Below the pieces are notes generated by a model. The model was not told where the DNA came from. It did not search any database and saw only the letters and a list, made by a program, of their open reading frames with translations. This document shows, in pieces, positions 26,428-44,499 of a stretch of 48,939 nt of DNA (position 1 is the stretch's first letter; each line of letters starts with the position of its first letter). Source of the DNA: an uncultured Ruminococcus sp. (lineage in GTDB: Bacteria; Bacillota; Clostridia; Oscillospirales; Acutalibacteraceae); the NCBI GenBank assembly GCA_902787145.1, contig CADAEZ010000008.1:1-48939 (forward strand), in the 5' to 3' direction. Made by a program: the position numbers and the translations under genes.

Positions 26428-26533
26428 AAAATATATAGCTCTTTAATATATTTTTTTAAAAAAAGTGTCACAAAATCGCCTCTCGCGGGGTTATATTATA
26501 TGGAAGACTTTTTTAACTAAAGGAGAGATTACA

Positions 26534-29500
26534 ATGTTAAAAAGAGTATTATCGGTAGTAATCTGTGTTTGTCTCGCGGTTAGCTGTTTCTCGGTTTTGG
26601 GAATAACCGCGTCGGCTGACGATACGGAGTCAATCAGAAATAAGAGCTTTATCCTGGATGTTTCGGAAATTGATGATCCGAACGATCCGTGCAGCTGGTA
26701 CGCCCTTTGCTGGGACGGATATAGTCTCGACAGAAACGACGAATACTGGGTAGAGGGACAGCCTGAGGGCGAAGGCAAGGTACGGTTTGACAATGTCAGT
26801 ACATACGCCGACTTCTATCAAAAACCCCTTAACAGCGGCGAAGGTTTTGACGACGTGATGTACAATACGGGCGATATCCTGGTTGAAGCAACCTCGGAGT
26901 ACGACGTTCTTCGACTGATTCGTACAGAAGATGATATAGATTATAGATGGGAATTATTCAGCCCCGGCGGCGCTGTGGATGATGATGAGTTCTACTACGA
27001 CACGATACCCGGCACAAATCTCGTATACTATGATTTAAAGGGCTGGGGCAATCTTTACTGCTACGCGTGGAACGATAACGGCGAGGAAAATGCCACCTGG
27101 CCGGGAGTCAGGATGGTAGGCCCGGTGGAGAACGGCTTCGGCGAGCAAATGTACGGTATAAACCTGTCTCACAAATATACTCATATTATATTTAACGATG
27201 GATTCACAAATGGCGATGATAACCGTACAGTAGATATTGATTACGACGGCGAGTACGTAGGCTTTGCATATTACAGTGATGATGTATTATGGGGCTGGAC
27301 AAGTTCCGGCCAATATAAGGAATTCCCCGACGATGATTCGGGAGATATCTGGGGAGGATCCGATGCGCTGACAGCCCGAATCTGCCTCAACGGCGAGGAG
27401 GTCAGTAAGACAGTTATCAGCGACAAAACCTTTAAGGTAACATATAACCTGAAGCACAACACTCCTATAGTTGACGCTCAGGCGACGCTGACATATGACA
27501 ACAGCAAGCTTATACTGGATAACTGGGATTTTCCCGTTGTAGAATATTCCGTAATCGACAACCTCAGCGCGAGCGATAAAACAGCCGCGTTCAACTTTAC
27601 GAGTTCGAAAAGACCATTCGATTTCTCGCAGGGAGCCGAGCTGGTAACGGCTTACTTTACCGTCAAAGACGGTGCCGAGGGTACCGCGAATGTCAACCTT
27701 GATGTTGAGGAGCTCGACGACACGAACTGCCCGCTTATAACAAATGGCAAAGTCAGCGACAACGGCGCCGCCGCGTTTAATTCGCTTAAAAATATAGCGG
27801 TTGCTCCCGTTATCAAGGACGTTATTTCCGATGACCTTACGGCTAACATATGCCTGAACAGCGAGAGTGTAAAATCTCAGGTTATAACAGGCGACAGATT
27901 CAGCGTTACATATAAGCTAAAGTCCGCCAAGCCGATTATAGACGGACAGTTTACTCTTCGCTATAACCACAACAAGCTGAGTCTTGAATCCTGGGATTTC
28001 CCTGTAATTAACCCCGTGGTAATTGATAATCTTGCATCCACAGAGGATACAGCCGAGTTCAACTTTACAAGTCCGAAAAGACCGTTTGACTTTTCAAGCG
28101 AAGATGTTCTCGTGACAGCGTACTTCTCTGTTAGGGAAGACGCAAAGGGCGAAGCGCTGATCGATCTTTGCGCCGAGGTGCTCGACGACACCGAAAATAA
28201 TTTGATTGATAAGGAAAAAGTGACCGAGAAGGGCGCTTCAGTGTATAATTCGCTAAAAAATATCGAGATAAATGAAACCGAAGAGTTAACAAACGACGAT
28301 CTGCAAGCTGTCGTTTGTCTGGACAACAATCTGATGAAATATCAGCGTATCGACGGCGACGTGTTCTATGTAACATACAGCCTTCAATCCGATATTCCTA
28401 TAACCGACGGACAGTTTGAGCTTTACTACACCGGCTCAAAGGTCAAACTGGAGGACTGGAGCTTCCCGGTTATCGACAGAGCGGTTATAGATAATAAAGA
28501 TATTGTGCCGGCGTATTTTAATTTTACAAGTCCGAACCGGCCGTTTGATTTCTCAAGCGGAAACGAGCTCGTCACACTCAAGTTCAGGGTTGATCCCGAC
28601 GCTTACGGAATCGTGGATGTTAACCTGGTTACAAAGGAGCTCGACGGCGACGATAACTTTATGATCGTTAACAACGGCGAGGTTACTTCACAGGGAAAAT
28701 ATATCTACAACTCCCTGAGGAATGTTGTGATTTCCGATGAGCCTTATTATTATGAATACGGAAACTCGGAGGAAACCGAAGATCCTACCGAGGGTTACGA
28801 ATCAACCGAACCAACCGAAAACTATACGGAAGAGCGTGAAAATCCCACTGAGGGAAATGAATATATCTACTTCGACGCTTCCGGCTGGAGCAATTATTCG
28901 AAAATTTACTGCCATATCTGGGAGAGAGGCGGGCAAGGTTTCTACAACTGGCAGGCCAAGAAAGAGGCTTGTAAAAAGGTAAGCGACAATATTTATGCGT
29001 ATGACCTTGACGCCGCTAATATTACACTCGATCCCGATAAGGATTACTGCGTTATCTTCTCATCTAACACAGGTATCCAGACTTTTGATATAACTATCGG
29101 TAAGGATTGTATCGGCGATACAGCCAAGCTCACAGGCAACAAGATTGAGAACCCTGTAGACCCCGATAAGAAGTCTGACGAGGCTGTATGGACAACAAAC
29201 AGCTCAGAATACGGTCCTCACCTTACTATCACATCTATCGGCAACATCGTTGGTACCAAGCTCTGCCCCCACGAGAACGGCACAGAGGTTATCGGTGACT
29301 GGCTCCCGACATATTACAACAGCCCTTTCGTCGATCCTGTAAAGGCTCTCGCTACAGCTATTCCGAAGTTTGGTATCACATCCGCTGATGACCTCGATAC
29401 AATCTACGATTACATCATCAACAAGAACCCAAGCCTCTCTTACGGCGAAAAGAAGGACATCTACAATGTTCTCGCCGAGGGATTCAAGCAGGCTTTCCCT

Positions 29501-30277
29501 CCAAAGCCAAGCGAAGTTAAGTCTGATGACGAGTCTGCAAATCCCACAGAGCCCGATACCAAGCCTTCCGGAGAAAAGCAGATATTCTACTTCCAGCCTG
29601 ACATCGGTGATATAGCCGCCGGCTATACCTTCAAGCTCGCGGTCAAGGTAGCGGGCAGCGACGAGATTCAGTATTACGAGTTTGCTCCGACTGCCTACGA
29701 AAATGACGGAGTAACGCTGTACGCTGCTGAGCTTCCTGCCGAATTACAGGTAGAATCACTCGAATATCAGGTTTATAACGGCGATGTACGCGTATCCAAG
29801 GTGGAGAAAACATCCGATAGTATCGCCGCGTTAGCAGGTAATGTAGTGAAATCCGACGGTACTGTATACAACATCAGATCGGCATCAATCAGAAAGAATC
29901 CCGGTTCGAACACCAAATCCGACAGCAAAGCTGTCGCCCCAACCGTAAAGCCTGCTCAAAAGGTTAAGGCGAATACCCTTAAGGTTTCGGCCAAAAACAA
30001 GACAGTCAAGGCTAAAAAGCTCAGCAAAAAAGCTCAGAAGATCAAGCCTCTCAAGATTAAAAACGCAAAAGGCACGGTCAAGTGCAGAATACTCAAAAAG
30101 GGTACAGATAAGAAAATCTACAAAAAGCTCACTATAAACAAAAAGGGCGTTATCAAAATCAAGAGTTGTAAACTCAAGAAGAAAAAATACAGTGTAAAGG
30201 TCGAGGTAACCGCTTCCGGTAACGACAACTACTACACCAAAACAATTAAAAAGGTGTTTAAGATTAAGGTTAAGTGA
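26534..30277 (+). CDS. Large secreted modular protein: CBM26-like module, three cohesin-like repeats, Lys-rich C-terminus (scaffoldin candidate)
   Basis: This 1247-residue protein has a signal peptide (about 1-28, ending ITASA). An N-terminal region contains a CBM26-like starch-binding module (about 155-245: NLVYYDLKGWGNLYCYAWND, ATWPGVRM, YTHIIFNDGF). Three ~145-residue repeats follow (about 277-423, 433-578, 588-732). Each has the order DxFxVTYxLK..PI.DxQxxLxY..xKLxLxxWxFPV, then FNFTSxxRPFDFS and LVTxxFxV, closing with YNSLKNxxI, which resembles cohesin folds. A Thr/Glu/Pro linker (about 745-776), a second carbohydrate-binding-like module (YIYFDASGW..IYCHIW, about 776-1000), a further beta domain and a basic Ig-like C-terminus shared with genes 7350 and 46739 complete it. 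Cohesins bind dockerins, so this may be an amylosome scaffoldin; that is inference. Start: ATG 8 bases after AAGGAGAG; the frame opens earlier but without a ribosome site. Confidence 0.75.
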   Translation: MLKRVLSVVICVCLAVSCFSVLGITASADDTESIRNKSFILDVSEIDDPNDPCSWYALCWDGYSLDRNDEYWVEGQPEGEGKVRFDNVSTYADFYQKPLNSGEGFDDVMYNTGDILVEATSEYDVLRLIRTEDDIDYRWELFSPGGAVDDDEFYYDTIPGTNLVYYDLKGWGNLYCYAWNDNGEENATWPGVRMVGPVENGFGEQMYGINLSHKYTHIIFNDGFTNGDDNRTVDIDYDGEYVGFAYYSDDVLWGWTSSGQYKEFPDDDSGDIWGGSDALTARICLNGEEVSKTVISDKTFKVTYNLKHNTPIVDAQATLTYDNSKLILDNWDFPVVEYSVIDNLSASDKTAAFNFTSSKRPFDFSQGAELVTAYFTVKDGAEGTANVNLDVEELDDTNCPLITNGKVSDNGAAAFNSLKNIAVAPVIKDVISDDLTANICLNSESVKSQVITGDRFSVTYKLKSAKPIIDGQFTLRYNHNKLSLESWDFPVINPVVIDNLASTEDTAEFNFTSPKRPFDFSSEDVLVTAYFSVREDAKGEALIDLCAEVLDDTENNLIDKEKVTEKGASVYNSLKNIEINETEELTNDDLQAVVCLDNNLMKYQRIDGDVFYVTYSLQSDIPITDGQFELYYTGSKVKLEDWSFPVIDRAVIDNKDIVPAYFNFTSPNRPFDFSSGNELVTLKFRVDPDAYGIVDVNLVTKELDGDDNFMIVNNGEVTSQGKYIYNSLRNVVISDEPYYYEYGNSEETEDPTEGYESTEPTENYTEERENPTEGNEYIYFDASGWSNYSKIYCHIWERGGQGFYNWQAKKEACKKVSDNIYAYDLDAANITLDPDKDYCVIFSSNTGIQTFDITIGKDCIGDTAKLTGNKIENPVDPDKKSDEAVWTTNSSEYGPHLTITSIGNIVGTKLCPHENGTEVIGDWLPTYYNSPFVDPVKALATAIPKFGITSADDLDTIYDYIINKNPSLSYGEKKDIYNVLAEGFKQAFPPKPSEVKSDDESANPTEPDTKPSGEKQIFYFQPDIGDIAAGYTFKLAVKVAGSDEIQYYEFAPTAYENDGVTLYAAELPAELQVESLEYQVYNGDVRVSKVEKTSDSIAALAGNVVKSDGTVYNIRSASIRKNPGSNTKSDSKAVAPTVKPAQKVKANTLKVSAKNKTVKAKKLSKKAQKIKPLKIKNAKGTVKCRILKKGTDKKIYKKLTINKKGVIKIKSCKLKKKKYSVKVEVTASGNDNYYTKTIKKVFKIKVK
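29120..29525 (+). other. Segment of unusual codon usage inside the modular protein
   Basis: Within the second carbohydrate-binding-like module Lys is almost always AAG and Thr often ACA, with many GCT and CTC codons, while flanking parts of the same gene prefer AAA and mixed codons. This bias resembles that of the gene at 46739 and suggests module shuffling. Confidence 0.45.
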
Positions 30278-35011: not shown

Positions 35012-37105
35012 TTATACTCCGAAAAGCATCTCGCCGTATGACGGGTACGGCCAGTACTCGGAGGCTGTCTGTGTCTCCATATCGTCGCCGATAGCTCTCA
35101 GCGCCTGCATATCGGCGAACACAACGTCACAGTAGTAGTCGGCGTAGGCCTGCATATCACCGGACAGCTCGGCGGCCTTTATAAGGTCGTTTTCGAGATC
35201 CGATACCTTGTCGGCGAAGCATACGAGCTTGCGGCTCAGATCGGTAACTAACTTGGTCTCCAGCGAAACCGGAATCTCGGTTGACAGCGCCTGCTTGGCG
35301 AGAGCTGTGTCTGTAAGGCTCTTGACGTACTCGGTGATAGAGGGGATGATGTCCTTCTTAGCCATATCAATCATTGTGAGAGCCTCGATGTTGATGAGCT
35401 TTGCGTAGTTTTCGAGCTCAACCTCGTATCTCGCTCTGAGCTCGTCCTCGGTGAACACCTCGTTTTCGGTGAACAGGTCGATGTTCTTTTGGTCTGTATA
35501 GTGTTTCAGCGCCATTGGAACGCTCTTGAGGTTCAGCAGTCCGCGTCTTTCGGCTTCCTTTACCCATTCCTTGGAGTAGTTGTCGCCGTTAAAGATGATT
35601 CTGTCGTGCTTCTTAAAGGTTCTGGCAACCAGTCTCTTTGCGGCAGCCTTGACGTCCTTTACGGATTCAAGTCTGTCGGCGAATTCCTTGAGCTCCTGAG
35701 CGACGATAGTGTTAAGTATGATGTTCGCGCTCGCTATGTTCGAAGCCGAACCGAGACTTCTGAACTCAAATCGGTTGCCGGTAAAGGCGAACGGTGAGGT
35801 TCTGTTTCTGTCGGTTGTATCCATTCTGAGGGATGGAAGAACCTCTACGCCGAGATCCATATTCTCGATATCCTCGCTCTCGTAATCCTCGCCCTCCTCG
35901 ATTGAGTGAACAACCGCGTCAAGGTCGTCGCCGAGGAATACGGACAGTATCGCCGGCGGAGCCTCGTTAGCTCCGAGACGGTGATCGTTGCCGGCTGAGG
36001 CTACCGAAATCCTCAGCAAATCCTGGTACTCGTCGACAGCCTTTACGATAGCCGCGAGGAATACGAGGAACTGTAGGTTCTCTGCGGGATTCTTGCCGGG
36101 TTTAAGCAGGTTTTCGCCTGTATTAGTCAGGATCGACCAGTTGTTGTGCTTGTCGGAGCCGTTTACGCCGGCAAAGGGCTTTTCGTGCAGCAGGCATACC
36201 AGGTTGAACTTCTCGGCGGTTTTCTTCAGAATTTCCATCAAAAGCTCGTTGTGGTCAACGGCTACGTTGGTGGTGGTAAAAATCGGAGCGATCTCGTGCT
36301 GTGACGGCGCAACCTCGTTGTGCTTGGTTTTGGCGTAGATGCCGTATCTCCAAAGCTCAATGTCGAGCTCCTTCATAAATTCGGAGATCCTGGTCTTTAT
36401 AGCGCCGAAGTAATGGTCGTCAAGCTCCTGACCCTTCGGAGCCTTGGCGCCGAAAAGGGTTCTGCCTGTATATATAAGGTCGGGACGCGCGTCGTATACG
36501 TCCTTGTCGATAAGGAAGTATTCCTGCTCCGGACCCACCGTGGTGATTACACGGTTAACGTCGGTTTTGCCGAAAATATGGAGAATTCGTACCGCTTCCT
36601 TCGAAATCCTCTCCATAGAGCGGAGGAGCGGAGTCTTTTTGTCGAGCACTTCGCCGGTGTACGAGGCGAAGGCAGTCGGGATATACAGTGTTCCGTCTCT
36701 GGCGAACGCGGGTGACGTAGGATCCCACGCGGTATAGCCCCTGGCCTCAAATGTGGCGCGGATACCGCCGTTGGGGAAGGATGACGCGTCGGGCTCGCCC
36801 TTTATGAGCTCTTTACCGCTGAAGGTCATCAGCACCTTATCCTCGCCGTCTGGGGTGATAAAGCTGTCGTGCTTTTCGGCGGTGATACCGGTGAGTGGCT
36901 GGAACCAGTGGGTAAAGTGCGTGCAGCCCTTTTCGATAGCCCACTCCTTCATAGCGTGAGCGACCGCGTTGGCCACACTGTCGTCCAGGGTCTCGCCGTC
37001 CTGAATAGTCTTCTTAAGCGCCTTGTATACCGGCTTAGGAAGCCTTTCCTTCATTACATCATCGTTAAATACGTTGCTGCCAAACAGTTCGGGAACGTTA
37101 ATCAT
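35012..37105 (-). CDS. glnN: Type III glutamine synthetase
   Basis: At 697 residues the protein has the length of the GSIII class (about 700), far larger than GSI. It carries GSIII features [13 protein letters not shown] at the start, [43 protein letters not shown] and the glutamate/ATP region [33 protein letters not shown] and [19 protein letters not shown]. It makes glutamine from glutamate, ammonia and ATP in the cytoplasm and is the main ammonia entry point in many ruminococci and bacteroides. A consensus promoter and a 5' leader with a strong GC hairpin suggest regulation, and an ANTAR RNA-binding regulator lies divergently 303 bases away. Start: ATG behind AAGGAG. Confidence 0.96.
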
Positions 37106-37408: not shown

Positions 37409-37978
37409 ATGAAAAAAGCATTGATTGTTTCGAAAACCGAATCCGGTATCAAGGCGATATCGTCTTTGCTTTCAAACGAGGGCTTCGACGATATTGTGTG
37501 CACGGTTTCGGCCTGTGACGCCGAGGCCAAGGCGCGCGAGGACAGCTTTGAGCTTATTATAATCAACACTCCTCTCGATACCGAAACAGGTCTTGAACTT
37601 TCTGTTTCCTGCGCCGAAAAAACCAAATCCTGTGTTTTTCTGGTTGTAAAGCAGGAAAAATCAGGCGAAGCGTTCGACATAGTCGACGGCAGCGGAGTAA
37701 TGGTTATCAGCAAGCCCATCAACAAACGCCTGTTTGCCAATCTTCTTCATTATTCCGCGGGATTCAAGAACAGGCTGATTCCCTCGATTGAGGAGAGCGA
37801 AAAGCTCCGTTCCGAAATGGAGGAAATGAAAGTCATCAACCGCGCCAAGCTGCTTTTGATTCAGTGTCTTTCTATGACCGAGAATCAGGCGCACAGGTAT
37901 ATCGAGCACCAGGCGATGAATATGCGCAAAAGTAAGCTCGATATTGCCAAGCAGGTTATTCGAACATACCAGAACTAG
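37409..37978 (+). CDS. ANTAR-domain antiterminator with degenerate receiver domain
   Basis: This 189-residue protein has a receiver-like domain (about 1-115), a coiled-coil (about 127-142) and an ANTAR domain (about 140-188, INRAKLLLIQCLSMTENQAHRYIEHQAMNMRKSKLDIAKQVI). ANTAR proteins bind paired hairpins in mRNA leaders and prevent termination. The phosphoacceptor position reads IIINTPL (Asn instead of Asp) and the usual acidic pair at the N-terminus is VSKTES, while the conserved lysine (VISKPI) is kept, so phosphorylation is unlikely. The gene lies divergently next to glnN, and ANTAR proteins next to nitrogen genes commonly control them; that target is inference. carA follows after 44 bases on the same strand. 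Confidence 0.88.
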   Translation: MKKALIVSKTESGIKAISSLLSNEGFDDIVCTVSACDAEAKAREDSFELIIINTPLDTETGLELSVSCAEKTKSCVFLVVKQEKSGEAFDIVDGSGVMVISKPINKRLFANLLHYSAGFKNRLIPSIEESEKLRSEMEEMKVINRAKLLLIQCLSMTENQAHRYIEHQAMNMRKSKLDIAKQVIRTYQN

Positions 37979-38022: not shown

Positions 38023-39102
38023 ATGAGCCGAACCGCATACCTTATTCTCGAAAACGGTAAATACTTCGAGGGCAAAGCCTTCGGAGCTGAAAAGGAAACA
38101 ACAGGGGAGCTCGTCTTTACTACCGCGATGACAGGCTATCTTGAAACACTCACCGACCCAAGCTATTATGGTCAGGTGGTTATTCAGACATTCCCTCTCA
38201 TCGGTAACTACGGGGTGATTCCTTCTGATTTTGAGAGCGAGTCTCCCGCTTTAAAAGCTTATATTGTTAGAAACTGGTGCCAAGCTCCCAGCAACTTCCG
38301 TTGTGAGGGGGATCTTGACACTTTTTTAAAAAGCGCCGGTATTCCCGGACTTTACGATATCGACACAAGAGCCCTGACCCGTATTGTAAGGGAGTTCGGT
38401 GTTATGAACTGCAAGCTCACCTATACGCTTGATAACCTCGATAAGGACGTCGAGGAGATTAAGCCCTATAAGGTCACCGAGGCGGTCAGCTCAACTTCGA
38501 CAAAGGATAAACAAGTCTTTAAGGCCGAAAAGCCGGAGCGCGAAGTGGTGCTTATCGACTACGGCGCCAAGCATAATATAGGCCGCGAGCTTGTAAAGCG
38601 CGGATGCAACCTCACCGTTGTGCCGTATAATACTTCCGCCGAGGAAATCCTTTCGCTCGATCCCGACGGTATAATGCTGTCGAACGGCCCCGGAGACCCT
38701 CAGGAGAATACCGAGGCCATAGAACAGCTCAAAAAGCTGTGCGAAAAGAAAATCCCGACATTCGGCATCTGCCTCGGACATCAGCTTCTGGCGCTGTCCC
38801 AGGGAGCAAAGACCGAAAAGCTCCACTACGGTCACCGCGGAGCCAATCAGCCCGCTAAGGAGATTAAGACCGACAGAGTGTTCATCACATCCCAGAACCA
38901 CGGTTACGCCGTAATCAACGACTCCGTACCCGATAACGCCGAAGTAAGCTTCGTAAACGGTAACGACGGAACCTGCGAGGGCGTCACATACAAGGATATG
39001 CCTGCTTTTTCGGTTCAGTTCCATCCCGAAGCCTGCGGAGGTCCCAAGGACACGGCCTTCCTCTTTGACAGATTCATTGAAATGATAGACGAGAATAAGT
39101 AG
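38023..39102 (+). CDS. carA: Carbamoyl-phosphate synthase small subunit
   Basis: This 359-residue protein has the CarA amino-terminal domain (LILENGKYFEGKAFGAEKETTGELVFTTAMTGYLETLTDPSYYGQVV) and a class I glutamine amidotransferase domain. The catalytic Cys lies in FGICLGHQLLAL, and His-Glu in FSVQFHPEACGGP. It hydrolyses glutamine and channels ammonia to the large subunit for carbamoyl phosphate synthesis, feeding arginine and pyrimidine pathways. Start: ATG behind GAAAGGAAG. It is 29 bases upstream of the carB-dapF gene. Confidence 0.97.
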   Translation: MSRTAYLILENGKYFEGKAFGAEKETTGELVFTTAMTGYLETLTDPSYYGQVVIQTFPLIGNYGVIPSDFESESPALKAYIVRNWCQAPSNFRCEGDLDTFLKSAGIPGLYDIDTRALTRIVREFGVMNCKLTYTLDNLDKDVEEIKPYKVTEAVSSTSTKDKQVFKAEKPEREVVLIDYGAKHNIGRELVKRGCNLTVVPYNTSAEEILSLDPDGIMLSNGPGDPQENTEAIEQLKKLCEKKIPTFGICLGHQLLALSQGAKTEKLHYGHRGANQPAKEIKTDRVFITSQNHGYAVINDSVPDNAEVSFVNGNDGTCEGVTYKDMPAFSVQFHPEACGGPKDTAFLFDRFIEMIDENK

Positions 39103-39131: not shown

Positions 39132-42100
39132 ATGCCGTTGAAATCAGATATAAAAAGAGTAATGGTAATCGGCTCAGGCCCGATTGTAATCGGCCAGGCT
39201 GCCGAATTCGACTACGCGGGTACCCAGGCCTGCCGCGCTCTTAAGGAGGAGGGGCTCGAGGTAATCCTCGTAAACTCCAACCCCGCGACTATTATGACAG
39301 ATAACGCTATGGCGGACAAGGTCTATATCGAGCCGCTTACGCTGGAGATTGTAAAGCGAATTATCATCAAGGAGAGACCCGACTCCCTGCTCTCGACTCT
39401 GGGAGGTCAGACAGGACTCACCCTATCGATGCAGCTCGCCAAGGAAGGTTTCCTCGACAAATACGGAGTAAAGCTCCTCGGAGCGGTTCCCGAGACAATC
39501 GACAAGGCCGAGGACAGACAGATGTTCAAGGATACTATGCTGGAGATCAACCAGCCTGTCATTCCGTCAACCGTAGTAAACGACGTCGAGCACGCTGTAA
39601 GATTCGCTGATGAAATCGGTTATCCCGTAATTGTGCGTCCGGCATTTACTCTCGGCGGCACCGGCGGCGGTATCGTCGATAACGAGGAAGAGCTCCGCGA
39701 AATCTGTTCCAACGGACTGGAGCTTTCCCCGATTACACAGTGCCTTATCGAGAAGTGTATCTCCGGCTGGAAGGAAATCGAGTTCGAGGTAATGCGCGAT
39801 TCGCTCGGCAATGTTATCACCGTATGTTCCATGGAGAACTTCGACCCTGTCGGAGTGCATACCGGCGACTCAATAGTAATCGCGCCGGCCGTTACCCTCG
39901 CCGACAAGGAGTACCAGATGCTCCGTTCGGCGGCGCTCAACATTATCTCGGCGCTCAAGGTCGAGGGCGGTTGTAACTGTCAGTTCGCGCTTAACCCGGA
40001 GACCTTCGAGTACGCTGTAATCGAGGTTAACCCCCGTGTATCGCGTTCATCCGCGCTCGCCTCAAAGGCTACCGGTTATCCGATTGCCAAGGTTGCGGCG
40101 AAAATCGCGATCGGCTATACTCTCAACGAGATTCGTAACGCCGTAACAGGCTCCACCTATGCCTGCTTCGAGCCTGCGCTCGACTATGTTGTAGTTAAGC
40201 TGCCTAAGTGGCCGTTTGATAAATTCGTATACGCCAAGCGTTCGCTCGGAACCCAGATGAAGGCTACCGGCGAGGTTATGGCAATCGCGCCTACGTTTGA
40301 GCAGGCGATTATGAAGGCTGTAAGAGGAGCCGAGATATCCCACGATACCCTCGACGACGAGATGTTCGAGGAGATGACCGACGAGCAGATCGTCGAGAGA
40401 CTTTCGGTCTGCGACGACCTGAGGATGTTCTGTGTATATGAGGCGCTCAAGCGCGGAGTATCCGTAGATAAAATCCACGAAATCACACTCATAGACGAGT
40501 GGTTCCTCGATAAGCTTATTTATATTGCCCAAATGGGTGAAAAGCTTAAACAAGGCAACCTCACCGATGAGCTCTACAGACAGGCCAAGGAGCTCGGTTA
40601 TCTCGACAGAACTATCGAGAAATTCAGCGGACAGAAGGTCGAAAATCCCCTTGTGCCGGTATTCAAGATGGTTGATACCTGCGCGGCTGAGTTTAACGCC
40701 GAGACCCCGTACTTCTACTCGACATATGACGAGGAGAATGAGGCTGAGCTGTTTATACAGGAGAGAAAATCCGACAAAAAAACAGTAATCGTATTTGGCT
40801 CCGGCCCGATCCGTATCGGCCAGGGCATCGAGTTCGACTACGCGTCCGTACACTGCGTATGGGCTCTTAAAAAGGCGGGCTTTGAGGTTGTTATCGTAAA
40901 CAACAACCCCGAAACCGTATCGACAGACTTTGATACAGCCGACAGGCTTTACTTCGAGCCTCTTACCACCGAGGACGTTATGGGTATTATCAAAACCGAA
41001 AAGCCGTTCGGCGTAGTAGTAGCCTTCGGCGGACAGACGGCGATAAAGCTCACCCAGTTCCTCGACGAGAGCGGAGTAAACATCCTCGGAACTTCCTACG
41101 ACGCTATTGATATGGCCGAGGACAGAGAGCGCTTTGACGAGCTGCTCGAAATGCACAACATCGCCCGCGCCAAGGGCGTGACCGTTATGACCAAGGATGA
41201 GGCGCTCAAGGCAGCCAACCGTATAGGATATCCGGTTCTGCTTCGTCCGTCATATGTGCTCGGCGGTCAGAATATGATTATCGCGTTTAACGACGCTGAC
41301 GTCGACGAATATATGGATATCATTCTCGCTCAGGAGATTGAGAACCCGATTCTTATTGATAAATACCTTATGGGCACAGAGCTTGAGGTAGACGCTATCT
41401 GTGACGGCGAGGATATACTTATTCCGGGTATTATGGAGCACGTAGAGCGTTCGGGAGTTCATTCCGGCGACTCTATCGCCGTATATCCCGCGTGGAACGT
41501 AACCGACGAGATGACCGATATCATCATCGAGGCCACACGCAACCTCGCGCTTTCGCTAAAGACAAAGGGTCTCGTAAATATCCAGTACATCGTATATAAC
41601 GGCGAGCTCAACGTAATCGAGGTTAATCCGCGTTCCTCGCGAACAATTCCGTATATCAGCAAGGTAACCGGAGTTCCCATGGTGGACCTCGCGACAAAGG
41701 CTATGCTCGGCGAGAAGCTCTCGGATATGGGCTATGGCACCGGACTCTATAAGAAGTCTCCGTACTTTGCCGTAAAGGTTCCCGTGTTCAGCTTCGAAAA
41801 GCTCATCAACGTAGACAACCACCTCGGCCCGGAGATGAAGTCCACCGGCGAGGTTCTCGGAGTTGCCGGAACGCTGGAGGAGGCTCTCTACAAGGGTCTT
41901 ATCGGAGCCGGCTACAAGATGAATCACGGAGGCGGAGTGTTTGTCACCGTGCGTGATTCCGACAAGGCGGAAATCGGCGACATCGTCAAGAAATACGCCG
42001 ATATGGGCTTCAGGATTTACGCGACAAATGGTACCGCAAAGGTGCTCGAAACCTACAATATAGAATCAACGATAGTAAGCAAAATCCACGAGGACGACGA

Positions 42101-43184
42101 CAATAACACGCTCACACTAATCGAAAGCGGAGAGGTTCAGTACGTAATCTCGACCTCTGCCAAGGGCAGGATCCCAAGCCGCGACTCGGTAAAAATCCGC
42201 CGCAAGACGGTTGAGCGCAACATCCCGTGCCTTACATCTCTCGACACAGCCAACGCTCTCGCCGACTGCCTAAGAAGCCGTTATTCCCAGGTCAGCACCG
42301 AGCTTGTTGATATCAACAATATGCGATCCGAGAAGATGATGCTCAAGTTTACAAAGATGCAGGGAGCCGGAAACGACTATATCTACTGCTCAACCTTTGA
42401 CCAGGAAATCAACAATCCCGAGGCTCTCTCCGTGCGTCTCTCCGACCGTCACTTCGGTATCGGCGGCGACGGACTCATCCTCGTGTGTCCGTCCGATATA
42501 GCCGACGCCAAGATGCGTATGTTCAACCTCGACGGCTCCGAGGGCAAGATGTGCGGTAACGGAATCCGCTGTGTCGGCAAATTCCTCTATGACCACAATA
42601 TGCTGGATATCAACGACCGCGACGAGTTTACCATAGAAACCCTCAGCGGCGTAAAGAACCTCAAGGCCTATACCCAGGACGGCGAGGTCACTACGCTCAG
42701 AGTTGATATGGGCAAGGCGGAGCTTGATCCAAAGCTCATCCCCGTAAACTTCGACAAGGACAGAATGATTGACGAGGAAGTTGTGATTTCGGGTCAAAAG
42801 TACAACGTAACCTGCGTATCAATGGGTAATCCGCACTGTGTTGTGTTTGTGGATAACGTAGACGGACTCGAAATCGAAAAGATCGGTCCCGCATTCGAGA
42901 ACGACCCGATTTTCCCTGAACGCGTCAATACCGAGTTCATAAAAATCCTCAACGACCATACGATCAAGATGAGAGTATGGGAGCGCGGCTCCGGCGAGAC
43001 ATGGGCCTGCGGAACAGGCGCCTGCGCCGTAGCTGTAGCGGCCTGCGAGAACGGATTCTGCAAAAAAGGCGAGGATATCACAGTCAAGCTCAAGGGCGGC
43101 GACCTTATAATCAACTACACCGACGATACCGTTTATATGACCGGTAAGGCTGAAAAGGTATTTGAGGGCGAAATCGAAATCTGA
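39132..43184 (+). CDS. carB-dapF: CarB-DapF fusion: carbamoyl-phosphate synthase large subunit joined to diaminopimelate epimerase
   Basis: One uninterrupted frame of 1350 residues contains two complete enzymes. Residues 1-1068 are a full-length CarB. The first ATP-grasp half begins VMVIGSGPIVIGQAAEFDYAG and the second TVIVFGSGPIRIGQGIEFDYA (about 550); an MGS-type allosteric domain (about 930-1060) ends DCLRSRYSQVSTELVDIN. Residues 1069-1350 are a complete DapF starting MMLKFTKMQGAGNDY, with both active-site cysteines (CGNGIRC and CGTGACA). CarB makes carbamoyl phosphate; DapF converts LL-DAP to meso-DAP. The junction has an in-frame ATG ATG (42336) with only GAGAAG touching it, so separate DapF initiation would be weak. 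Downstream dapL supplies the epimerase substrate. CarB length matches unfused homologues. Confidence 0.95.
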   Translation: MPLKSDIKRVMVIGSGPIVIGQAAEFDYAGTQACRALKEEGLEVILVNSNPATIMTDNAMADKVYIEPLTLEIVKRIIIKERPDSLLSTLGGQTGLTLSMQLAKEGFLDKYGVKLLGAVPETIDKAEDRQMFKDTMLEINQPVIPSTVVNDVEHAVRFADEIGYPVIVRPAFTLGGTGGGIVDNEEELREICSNGLELSPITQCLIEKCISGWKEIEFEVMRDSLGNVITVCSMENFDPVGVHTGDSIVIAPAVTLADKEYQMLRSAALNIISALKVEGGCNCQFALNPETFEYAVIEVNPRVSRSSALASKATGYPIAKVAAKIAIGYTLNEIRNAVTGSTYACFEPALDYVVVKLPKWPFDKFVYAKRSLGTQMKATGEVMAIAPTFEQAIMKAVRGAEISHDTLDDEMFEEMTDEQIVERLSVCDDLRMFCVYEALKRGVSVDKIHEITLIDEWFLDKLIYIAQMGEKLKQGNLTDELYRQAKELGYLDRTIEKFSGQKVENPLVPVFKMVDTCAAEFNAETPYFYSTYDEENEAELFIQERKSDKKTVIVFGSGPIRIGQGIEFDYASVHCVWALKKAGFEVVIVNNNPETVSTDFDTADRLYFEPLTTEDVMGIIKTEKPFGVVVAFGGQTAIKLTQFLDESGVNILGTSYDAIDMAEDRERFDELLEMHNIARAKGVTVMTKDEALKAANRIGYPVLLRPSYVLGGQNMIIAFNDADVDEYMDIILAQEIENPILIDKYLMGTELEVDAICDGEDILIPGIMEHVERSGVHSGDSIAVYPAWNVTDEMTDIIIEATRNLALSLKTKGLVNIQYIVYNGELNVIEVNPRSSRTIPYISKVTGVPMVDLATKAMLGEKLSDMGYGTGLYKKSPYFAVKVPVFSFEKLINVDNHLGPEMKSTGEVLGVAGTLEEALYKGLIGAGYKMNHGGGVFVTVRDSDKAEIGDIVKKYADMGFRIYATNGTAKVLETYNIESTIVSKIHEDDDNNTLTLIESGEVQYVISTSAKGRIPSRDSVKIRRKTVERNIPCLTSLDTANALADCLRSRYSQVSTELVDINNMRSEKMMLKFTKMQGAGNDYIYCSTFDQEINNPEALSVRLSDRHFGIGGDGLILVCPSDIADAKMRMFNLDGSEGKMCGNGIRCVGKFLYDHNMLDINDRDEFTIETLSGVKNLKAYTQDGEVTTLRVDMGKAELDPKLIPVNFDKDRMIDEEVVISGQKYNVTCVSMGNPHCVVFVDNVDGLEIEKIGPAFENDPIFPERVNTEFIKILNDHTIKMRVWERGSGETWACGTGACAVAVAACENGFCKKGEDITVKLKGGDLIINYTDDTVYMTGKAEKVFEGEIEI

Positions 43185-43290: not shown

Positions 43291-43322
43291 GGAAAATTTA
43301 TGGAAATCAACAGAAACTTTGA
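43266..43322 (+). CDS. Possible 18-codon leader peptide overlapping dapL start
   Basis: An ATG with GGAAGGAAAG about 6 bases upstream encodes MPACGRKGWKIYGNQQKL, then TGA at 43320. It is out of frame with dapL and its ORF spans the dapL start (43300) and the hairpin CCCGC/GCGGG. It may couple or regulate dapL translation. Evidence is only position and ribosome site. Confidence 0.35.
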   Translation: MPACGRKGWKIYGNQQKL

Positions 43323-44499
43323 CAATCTTGTTCCCAACTACCTCTTTGCCGAGGTAGCCAAGAGAACTAACGACTATATCGCCAAGAACCCCGACAAAAA
43401 GGTTATCAAGCTCGGTATCGGAGACGTAACCCTGCCGCTTGCTCCTGTAGTTGTAGAAGCTATGAAGCAGGGAGCCGATGAGCTCGGCAACAAGGAAACC
43501 TTCAAGGGCTATCCCGATTACGAGGGCTACGAGTTCCTGCGTCAGGCGATTTCGGACTATTACAAGAGCTTCGGCGTATCCGTAGACTGCGACGAGGTGT
43601 TTGTGTCCGACGGCGCAAAATCCGACTGCGGAAACATCGGCGACATCTTCGGCGCCGACAATACCGTTCTCGTAACCGACCCGGTATATCCTGTCTATGT
43701 TGACAGCAATATTATGGCCGGCCGCGAGATAGTCTACGCCAATTCTACCGAGAAAAACGGCTTTGCCGCTATGCCTCCCAAGGACTTAAAGGCGGATATA
43801 ATCTATCTTTGTTCGCCAAACAATCCCACTGGTTCCGCGTATACCTATAACGAGCTTGAGGCGTGGATAGATTACGCTCTCGAAAACGACGCCGTAATTC
43901 TCTACGACGCCGCCTACGAGGCCTTTATCACCGAGGAGCTTCCGCGTTCGATATTCGCTGTCGAGGGAGCTCGCAAATGCGCCATAGAGTTCTGCTCACT
44001 CTCCAAGACAGCAGGCTTTACCGGTACACGCTGCGGATATACAATCATCCCCAAGGAGCTGGAGCGTGACGGTCACAACCTCAACAAGCTCTGGTACCGC
44101 CGTCAGGCAACCAAGTTCAACGGCGTATCGTGGCCTGTACAAAGAGGCGCCGCCGCTGTGTTCAGCGAGGAAGGACAAAAACAAATCCGCGAGAATATCG
44201 CGTACTATCAGGAGAACGCCCGTATCATTTCCTCCGCTCTCGACGAGCTCGGAATCTACTACACAGGCGGCAAAAACTCCCCCTACATCTGGCTTAAATG
44301 CCCCGGCAAAATGTCCAGTTGGGAATTCTTCGACTATCTGCTCGAAAACGCCAACGTAGTCGGTACACCCGGCGAGGGCTTCGGCTCAAACGGAGCCGGA
44401 TATTTCCGTCTCACCTCCTTCGGCGACAGAGAAAATACGATTGAAGCCGTCGAAAGAATCCAGAGACTCTTGTCCGAAAAACTGATAGATAATGTATAA
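43300..44499 (+). CDS. dapL: LL-diaminopimelate aminotransferase
   Basis: This 399-residue PLP enzyme (aminotransferase fold type I) shows the DapL hallmarks NRNFDNLVPNYLFAEV and VIKLGIGDVTLPLAP. The PLP region has DGAKSDCGNI, SPNNPTGSAYTY and CSLSKTAGFTGTRCGY, where the Lys binds PLP. It converts tetrahydrodipicolinate and glutamate directly to LL-DAP in the lysine and peptidoglycan pathway, bypassing the acyl-blocked routes. Its product is the substrate of DapF, which is fused to CarB 115 bases upstream on the same strand. Start: ATG behind GGAAAGG (spacing 11); an overlapping leader ORF may tune it. Confidence 0.96.
   Translation: MEINRNFDNLVPNYLFAEVAKRTNDYIAKNPDKKVIKLGIGDVTLPLAPVVVEAMKQGADELGNKETFKGYPDYEGYEFLRQAISDYYKSFGVSVDCDEVFVSDGAKSDCGNIGDIFGADNTVLVTDPVYPVYVDSNIMAGREIVYANSTEKNGFAAMPPKDLKADIIYLCSPNNPTGSAYTYNELEAWIDYALENDAVILYDAAYEAFITEELPRSIFAVEGARKCAIEFCSLSKTAGFTGTRCGYTIIPKELERDGHNLNKLWYRRQATKFNGVSWPVQRGAAAVFSEEGQKQIRENIAYYQENARIISSALDELGIYYTGGKNSPYIWLKCPGKMSSWEFFDYLLENANVVGTPGEGFGSNGAGYFRLTSFGDRENTIEAVERIQRLLSEKLIDNV

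Follow-up and report, generated by a model that had tools for sequence, protein, structure and literature searches.

The effectors of carbamoyl-phosphate synthase (CPS) act via its MGS domain, the UMP effect depending crucially on Thr977 and Lys993, according to the available part of PMC6245113. Diaminopimelate (DAP) epimerase, DapF, is a dimer whose lobes close upon DAP binding, and excerpts of PMC5296763 name the DAP-contact residues of the Corynebacterium glutamicum enzyme and report that its mutants C83A and C221A lost almost all activity. Furthermore, Escherichia coli DapF binds RppH directly and thereby activates it, without catalysis and also as a C73&217A variant (PMC4227774, in the portion available). 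Here we analyze a stretch of 48,939 nucleotides from an uncultured Ruminococcus sp. (contig CADAEZ010000008.1 of assembly GCA_902787145.1; hereafter the window), in which the CPS large subunit, CarB, and DapF are encoded as one protein of 1350 amino acids (39132..43184, forward strand). Comparison of sequences leads us to the reading, to which we assign a probability of about 60%, that this is one polypeptide with two working enzymes that goes back to a single old fusion, and that its DapF domain serves CPS in a further way that is independent of catalysis, the simplest version being DAP-responsive control.

Architecture, distribution and history of the fused protein

The open reading frame runs from an ATG at 39132 to the stop codon ending at 43184 as a single frame with no internal stops. 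Residues 1-1051 (39132..42284) matched the CarB profile NF003671 at 1492 bits over positions 1-1050 of 1058, TIGR01369 at 1454 bits and, over residues 1-1049, the bacterial CPS large subunit 1bxr at 1042 bits, while residues 1072-1348 (42345..43175) matched the DapF profile TIGR00652 at 299 bits over positions 2-268 of 270, with 2otn as the best solved DapF (282 bits); all three profile matches were far above their cut-offs. Pfam recovered both CPSase ATP-grasp halves, the oligomerisation domain, MGS and two DAP_epimerase stretches. The allosteric MGS domain, residues 949-1035 (41976..42236; PF02142, and alignment to 1bxr 926-1056), stands just before the junction, which is a linker of residues 1052-1071, SQVSTELVDINNMRSEKMML (42285..42344). 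An AlphaFold model of residues 557-1350 (40 sequences) had a mean predicted local distance difference test score (pLDDT) of 82.8 and a predicted template modelling score of 0.80, and the linker, whose blocks reached a pLDDT of 84-91, was modelled as ordered. The catalytic cysteines of the DapF domain are Cys1141 (42552..42554), at a position that is replaced in many fused relatives, and Cys1293 (43008..43010). Also present are nine of the DAP-contact residues listed in the available part of PMC5296763; motif and spacing place them at residues 1132, 1142, 1143, 1233, 1266, 1284, 1285, 1294 and 1295 of the fused protein. Thus, the first part qualifies as CarB by its full-length match, both ATP-grasp halves, MGS and a CarA encoded alongside, and the second as DapF by its full-length match, two cysteines and DAP contacts, which confirms the initial annotation of two intact enzymes in one frame.

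We searched for DapF domains in 59 relatives, 394 genomes of the order, 291 of the class and 398 of the phylum, with overlapping result tables. Among the matches listed, DapF lay in frames of ~1300-1570 amino acids in many families and of ~260-430 in others, and the fused architecture turned up again at each of these four levels, which speaks against a chance occurrence. The sampled fused loci span 42 family codes and 83 genus codes and include the single-contig genomes G883, G907 and G614 and the named strain Ruminococcus sp. FC2018; among the best 80 loci of one scan, all named, 34 were fused. The genome of the window is itself an assembly of 102 contigs (2.01 Mb, 87.5% complete), which would suit an artefact or a recent loss of the carB stop codon in one genome, the latter having been offered as one explanation from the outset. 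However, recurrence in so many families, in single-contig genomes and in a named strain, together with the single CarB clade described below, leaves this explanation a negligible likelihood, and we rejected it: an isolated accident does not fit a fusion that is old and kept in dozens of families. One record with the fusion is named Treponema but groups with Clostridia and is perhaps a mis-binned contig. In another genome (G551, contig C31) the CarB of the fused gene is in two pieces, matching profile positions 3-738 and 742-1051, through either a frameshift or a real split. Searches of open-licence PMC papers yielded no account of a CarB-DapF fusion, nor of an inactive DapF attached to any other enzyme, in keeping with the initial annotation, which did not recall it as a described enzyme.

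In CarB trees the fused proteins took one side of one branch: 111 of 151 rows with FastTree (starred value 100), 73 of 99 rows in a quick IQ-TREE run (starred 100) and 131 of 171 rows in the largest tree (starred 99). Frames with at most 900 aligned residues (or shorter than 950 in the 151-row tree) were left out, so that 170 of 177 frames were kept besides the window. Within a chosen sample, none of 40 unfused CarBs fell inside the fused clade. As the fused CarBs form one clade, the fusion probably descends from a single old event. The DapF tree (260 rows, lower support) is less simple: it needs four changes between fused and single, places seven stand-alone DapFs in its mostly fused half, with four (L079, L080, L081 and L084) nested among fused rows, and sets two fused rows (L124 and L141) beside stand-alone DapFs, their DapF parts being possible domain replacements. 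Like the fusion linker, the leader of the stand-alone dapF of L080 (genome G687) reads NMREARM, and it carries a strong Shine-Dalgarno sequence; since the shared letters include that sequence, both a fission relic and an unfused leader could account for it. In another genome (G262) a stand-alone DapF closely follows the fused gene on the same strand.

Three unfused CarBs (L278, L279 and L281) end in a VDIN tail similar to the linker, which indicates that the join lies at CarB's own C-terminus. In addition, two loci of a separate CarB lineage, one of them from the window's genus (L285, genome G010; L271, genome G473), have an unfused carB 1-5 bases ahead of dapF and also contain dapL; thus the carAB-dapF neighbourhood arose at least twice. 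Genome G473 holds a fused gene in addition to this unfused locus. We propose that a single old event placed carAB before a dapF-dapL operon and joined carB to dapF at the natural C-terminus of CarB via a linker of few residues.

Fused DapF domains with and without the catalytic cysteines

The fused domains fall into two classes, those with both catalytic cysteines (CC, the class of the window) and those in which one or both are replaced (x-type). Among 163 distinct fused domains, 79 were CC and 84 altered: the first cysteine was replaced and the second kept in 82 (Ala in 53, Gly in 16, Ser in 8, Phe in 5), one lacked only the second and one lacked both, counts of the second cysteine being affected by 80 loci that were fetched with patterns containing it but not the first. 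By contrast, all 97 stand-alone DapF domains, a set gathered by similarity to the window's domain, had both. Of the 131 fused genes whose CarB is nearly complete, 47 were CC and 84 were not. On the 171-row CarB tree the cysteine state changed 13 times, at least 10 of these changes being forced by starred branches; the smaller trees gave 14 changes (11 forced) on 99 rows and 12 (10 forced) on 151 rows. The second cysteine is gone in L319, L320, L322, L181, L223 and L330, and both are gone in L319, L320 and L322 (family f189; Ser and Ala) and, by other letters, in L223 and L330. Because x-type domains lack one or both cysteines, we do not file them as epimerases; in roughly half of the fusions sampled (84/163), a blanket label of fused DapF as an epimerase, or a meso-DAP route deduced from its presence, would be mistaken.

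The DAP pocket is retained in the altered class. At each of the nine contact positions the residue is conserved in 80-84 of the 84 x-type domains (95-100%), and all nine are kept in L319, L320 and L322, where both cysteines are gone; the genomes G883 and G907, from this group, are single contigs. The median ratio of nonsynonymous to synonymous divergence (dN/dS) for DapF was 0.10 in x-type (15 pairs) and 0.08 in CC (24 pairs), as estimated by simple NG86 on close, overlapping pairs with some synonymous distances near saturation, and the ratio of DapF to CarB distance was 1.24 and 1.35, respectively. These values indicate strong purifying selection in both classes and a DapF domain that is not decaying. 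The MGS domain differs between the classes as well: the Lys993 equivalent is kept in 47/47 CC and only 46/84 x-type CarBs (replaced in 38/84), and the Lys954 equivalent is replaced in 45/84 x-type and 1/47 CC (Arg). Joint loss of the MGS nucleotide site and the cysteine was dropped as evidence, the paired test not being significant.

We also compared the routes to meso-DAP in fused genomes. By TIGR00652 count, no DapF besides the fused one was found in 57 of 62 CC genomes, and a further match occurred in 42/72 x-type versus 5/62 CC genomes; in the 15 of those 42 from which the further DapF was fetched, it had both cysteines every time. A further DapF or a Ddh over cut-off was present in 68 of 72 x-type genomes, while 17 of 48 CC genomes tested had neither a stand-alone DapF nor Ddh. 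Plain Fisher tests, which ignore kinship, gave p values of 5e-10 and 4e-5. Many of the genomes are incomplete, so the absence of DapF or Ddh is uncertain. In the window's own genome one DapF, one full CarB and one Ddh were found. With the fused domain the sole DapF in most CC genomes, and no other route found in 17 of 48, the CC fusion is very likely a working epimerase, and the window protein very likely acts both as a CPS subunit and as a DAP epimerase.

A proposed second role for the fused domain and rival explanations

We propose that the fused polypeptide serves as the CPS large subunit together with CarA and as a DAP epimerase supplying meso-DAP, and that its DapF domain would act for CPS through its fold and DAP pocket, with no need for catalysis. 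Binding of DAP would close the two DapF lobes next to MGS and thereby match carbamoyl-phosphate supply to the cell-wall and lysine pool; where another meso-DAP enzyme is present, whether a stand-alone DapF or Ddh, the catalytic cysteine would be free to go while the second role remained. The RppH precedent, the MGS effector site beside the junction and the DAP-driven closure of the lobes make DAP-responsive control the simplest proposal. The more specific version, in which the fused domain is a DAP sensor of CPS, originally and in the window still an epimerase but in about ten lineages a pure sensor after loss of the catalytic cysteine, with DAP, a precursor of peptidoglycan and lysine, directly controlling the synthesis of carbamoyl phosphate, itself the precursor of arginine and UDP, we hold tentatively and at somewhat short of even odds. 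A tie of meso-DAP supply to carbamoyl phosphate, as the initial annotation had suggested, is possible, but simple coupling leaves unexplained the relatives that lack a catalytic cysteine and have kept their DAP contacts. If the proposal is true, then in many families of Clostridia the first step of arginine and pyrimidine synthesis and DAP, an amino acid of the cell wall, are linked in one chain. The fusions would also form a natural series of repeated loss of catalytic residues with the binding site kept, in which the conversion of an enzyme into a regulator can be compared in matched pairs.

Several observations weigh against this proposal. Contact residues are changed in three domains (one each in L181 and L223, two in L330), and conservation of 11 pocket positions in x-type domains was not significantly above that of 56 other conserved positions (mean 93%; p 0.17), so that general constraint on the fold would also fit. 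Some strongly conserved positions are relaxed, with domain Asn14, a substrate contact in Haemophilus influenzae DapF, kept in 66, Tyr18 in 40, Asp46 in 67 and Met164 in 23 of 84 x-type domains. The count of cysteine changes gives no direction, loss and regain being counted alike. When genomes were paired on the tree, cysteine state was not significantly associated with a further DapF or with any alternative meso-DAP route, most pairs showing no difference and the few differing pairs lying mainly in the expected direction. Furthermore, four of 72 x-type genomes (G217, G040, G402 and G321, the last 99% complete) had neither a further DapF nor Ddh, and with a Ddh in its own genome the window DapF need not be the sole meso-DAP route there. 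Finally, we know of no effect of DAP on any CPS.

The same conservation data bear on a plain bifunctional fusion without cross-talk, which would fix the expression ratio of the two enzymes and in which a dead x-type DapF would be an entrenched structural appendage that aids CarB folding, solubility or dimerisation. The dimeric state of DapF (PMC5296763, excerpt) and the oligomerisation of CPS (PMC6245113, excerpt) suit this explanation, as does a pocket kept no better than other conserved positions. However, a nearly complete set of DAP contacts, even where both cysteines are lost (f189), exceeds what a scaffold needs, and removal of DapF was not seen, with 0/40 unfused CarBs of the chosen sample in the fused clade; we therefore consider this explanation unlikely, although it deserves serious weight. 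Alternatively, the one-cysteine domain could be a new enzyme acting on DAP, or on a related diamino acid, in a one-base reaction that uses its second cysteine. That cysteine is kept in 82/84 x-type domains (a sample partly fetched with a pattern containing it) and in 78/84 of another set, and His, Glu and other pocket residues are kept too, but its loss in the six domains named above makes such an enzyme improbable.

We also weighed whether DapF is additionally or mainly made as a separate protein by internal initiation, the fused frame being a by-product of joined genes. Genes L016, L017 and L097 would allow it: their linkers encode AGGGAGG, part of the MRE codons and perhaps a former ribosome site that is now translated, before an in-frame ATG, so that a separate DapF could be made there, which speaks against a single polypeptide in these genes. 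In further CC genes, the old start of dapF shows Shine-Dalgarno pairing of -6 to -7 kcal/mol. In the window, however, pairing at the two ATGs of the old start is weak (-1.8 and -3.0 kcal/mol), compared to a mean of -7.2 for stand-alone dapF (n=95); the means for fused genes, counted only where a start codon exists at the old start, were -3.4 for CC (n=73) and -1.4 for x-type (n=70). Together with the open frame, this upholds the earlier statement that no stop or convincing internal ribosome site separates the two parts. Moreover, a start codon is absent from the stretch of -3 to +4 codons around the old dapF start in 36 of 79 CC genes, including those of six genomes in which no other DapF or Ddh was found (G314, G036, G309, G132, G098 and G168), and the linker is kept as protein, with N-x-M-R in most and varied Arg codons. 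Separate production of DapF is thus quite improbable, and we retain the proposal of one polypeptide with a DapF domain that has a second role for CPS.

Gene neighbourhood and comparison with known systems

Like the fusion gene, carA, dapL and the ANTAR gene lie on the forward strand. The CPS small (glutaminase) subunit gene carA (38023..39102; NF009475, 478 bits) ends 29 bp upstream of the fusion, and dapL (43300..44499; TIGR03542, 519 bits), which encodes the LL-diaminopimelate aminotransferase that makes the DapF substrate, follows 115 bp downstream, as first annotated. A dapL like that of the window directly follows 22/71 CC and 0/72 x-type domains with sufficient downstream sequence, counts that are not tree-corrected. 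An ANTAR-domain response regulator (37409..37978; PF03861) is encoded 44 bp upstream of carA and is possibly the regulator of the operon; farther out, 35012..37105 on the opposite strand encodes a type III glutamine synthetase, and the presence of both nearby fits a nitrogen-regulated operon. An ANTAR relative stood upstream of carA in 14 CC loci and one x-type fused locus, and in none of the 28 and 66 others with room, respectively. At gathering score, no known regulatory RNA was found within the window, and 10 related loci gave only three tRNAs, all in L178. Elsewhere in the window, 26465-30277 encodes a 1270-amino-acid protein that matches the starch-binding module CBM26 in two stretches.

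The use of dead enzyme paralogues as regulators is known, for example in HisZ, in which an enzyme fold is kept as an amino-acid-binding regulatory part, although HisZ is not fused to CPS and its fold is unrelated. The window protein shares all CarB domains, including MGS, with 1bxr, but whereas 1bxr has 1073 residues and ends after MGS, the window protein continues into a DapF domain of ~280 residues. This domain has in common with TIGR00652 and the solved DapFs the full-length match, both cysteines and the DAP-contact residues; DapF elsewhere is a free protein, while here it is C-terminal to CarB. Fusion of CPS to other enzymes is represented by eukaryotic CAD (CPSase, ATCase and DHOase; PMC6245113, available part). 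However, CAD joins consecutive steps of one pathway, whereas DapF belongs to a different one. A parallel to the proposed role is E. coli DapF with RppH (PMC4227774, available part), where DapF has been shown to regulate another enzyme by direct contact independently of catalysis, as we propose for CPS; there DapF is a non-covalent partner of a different target enzyme, while in the window it is fused to CarB.

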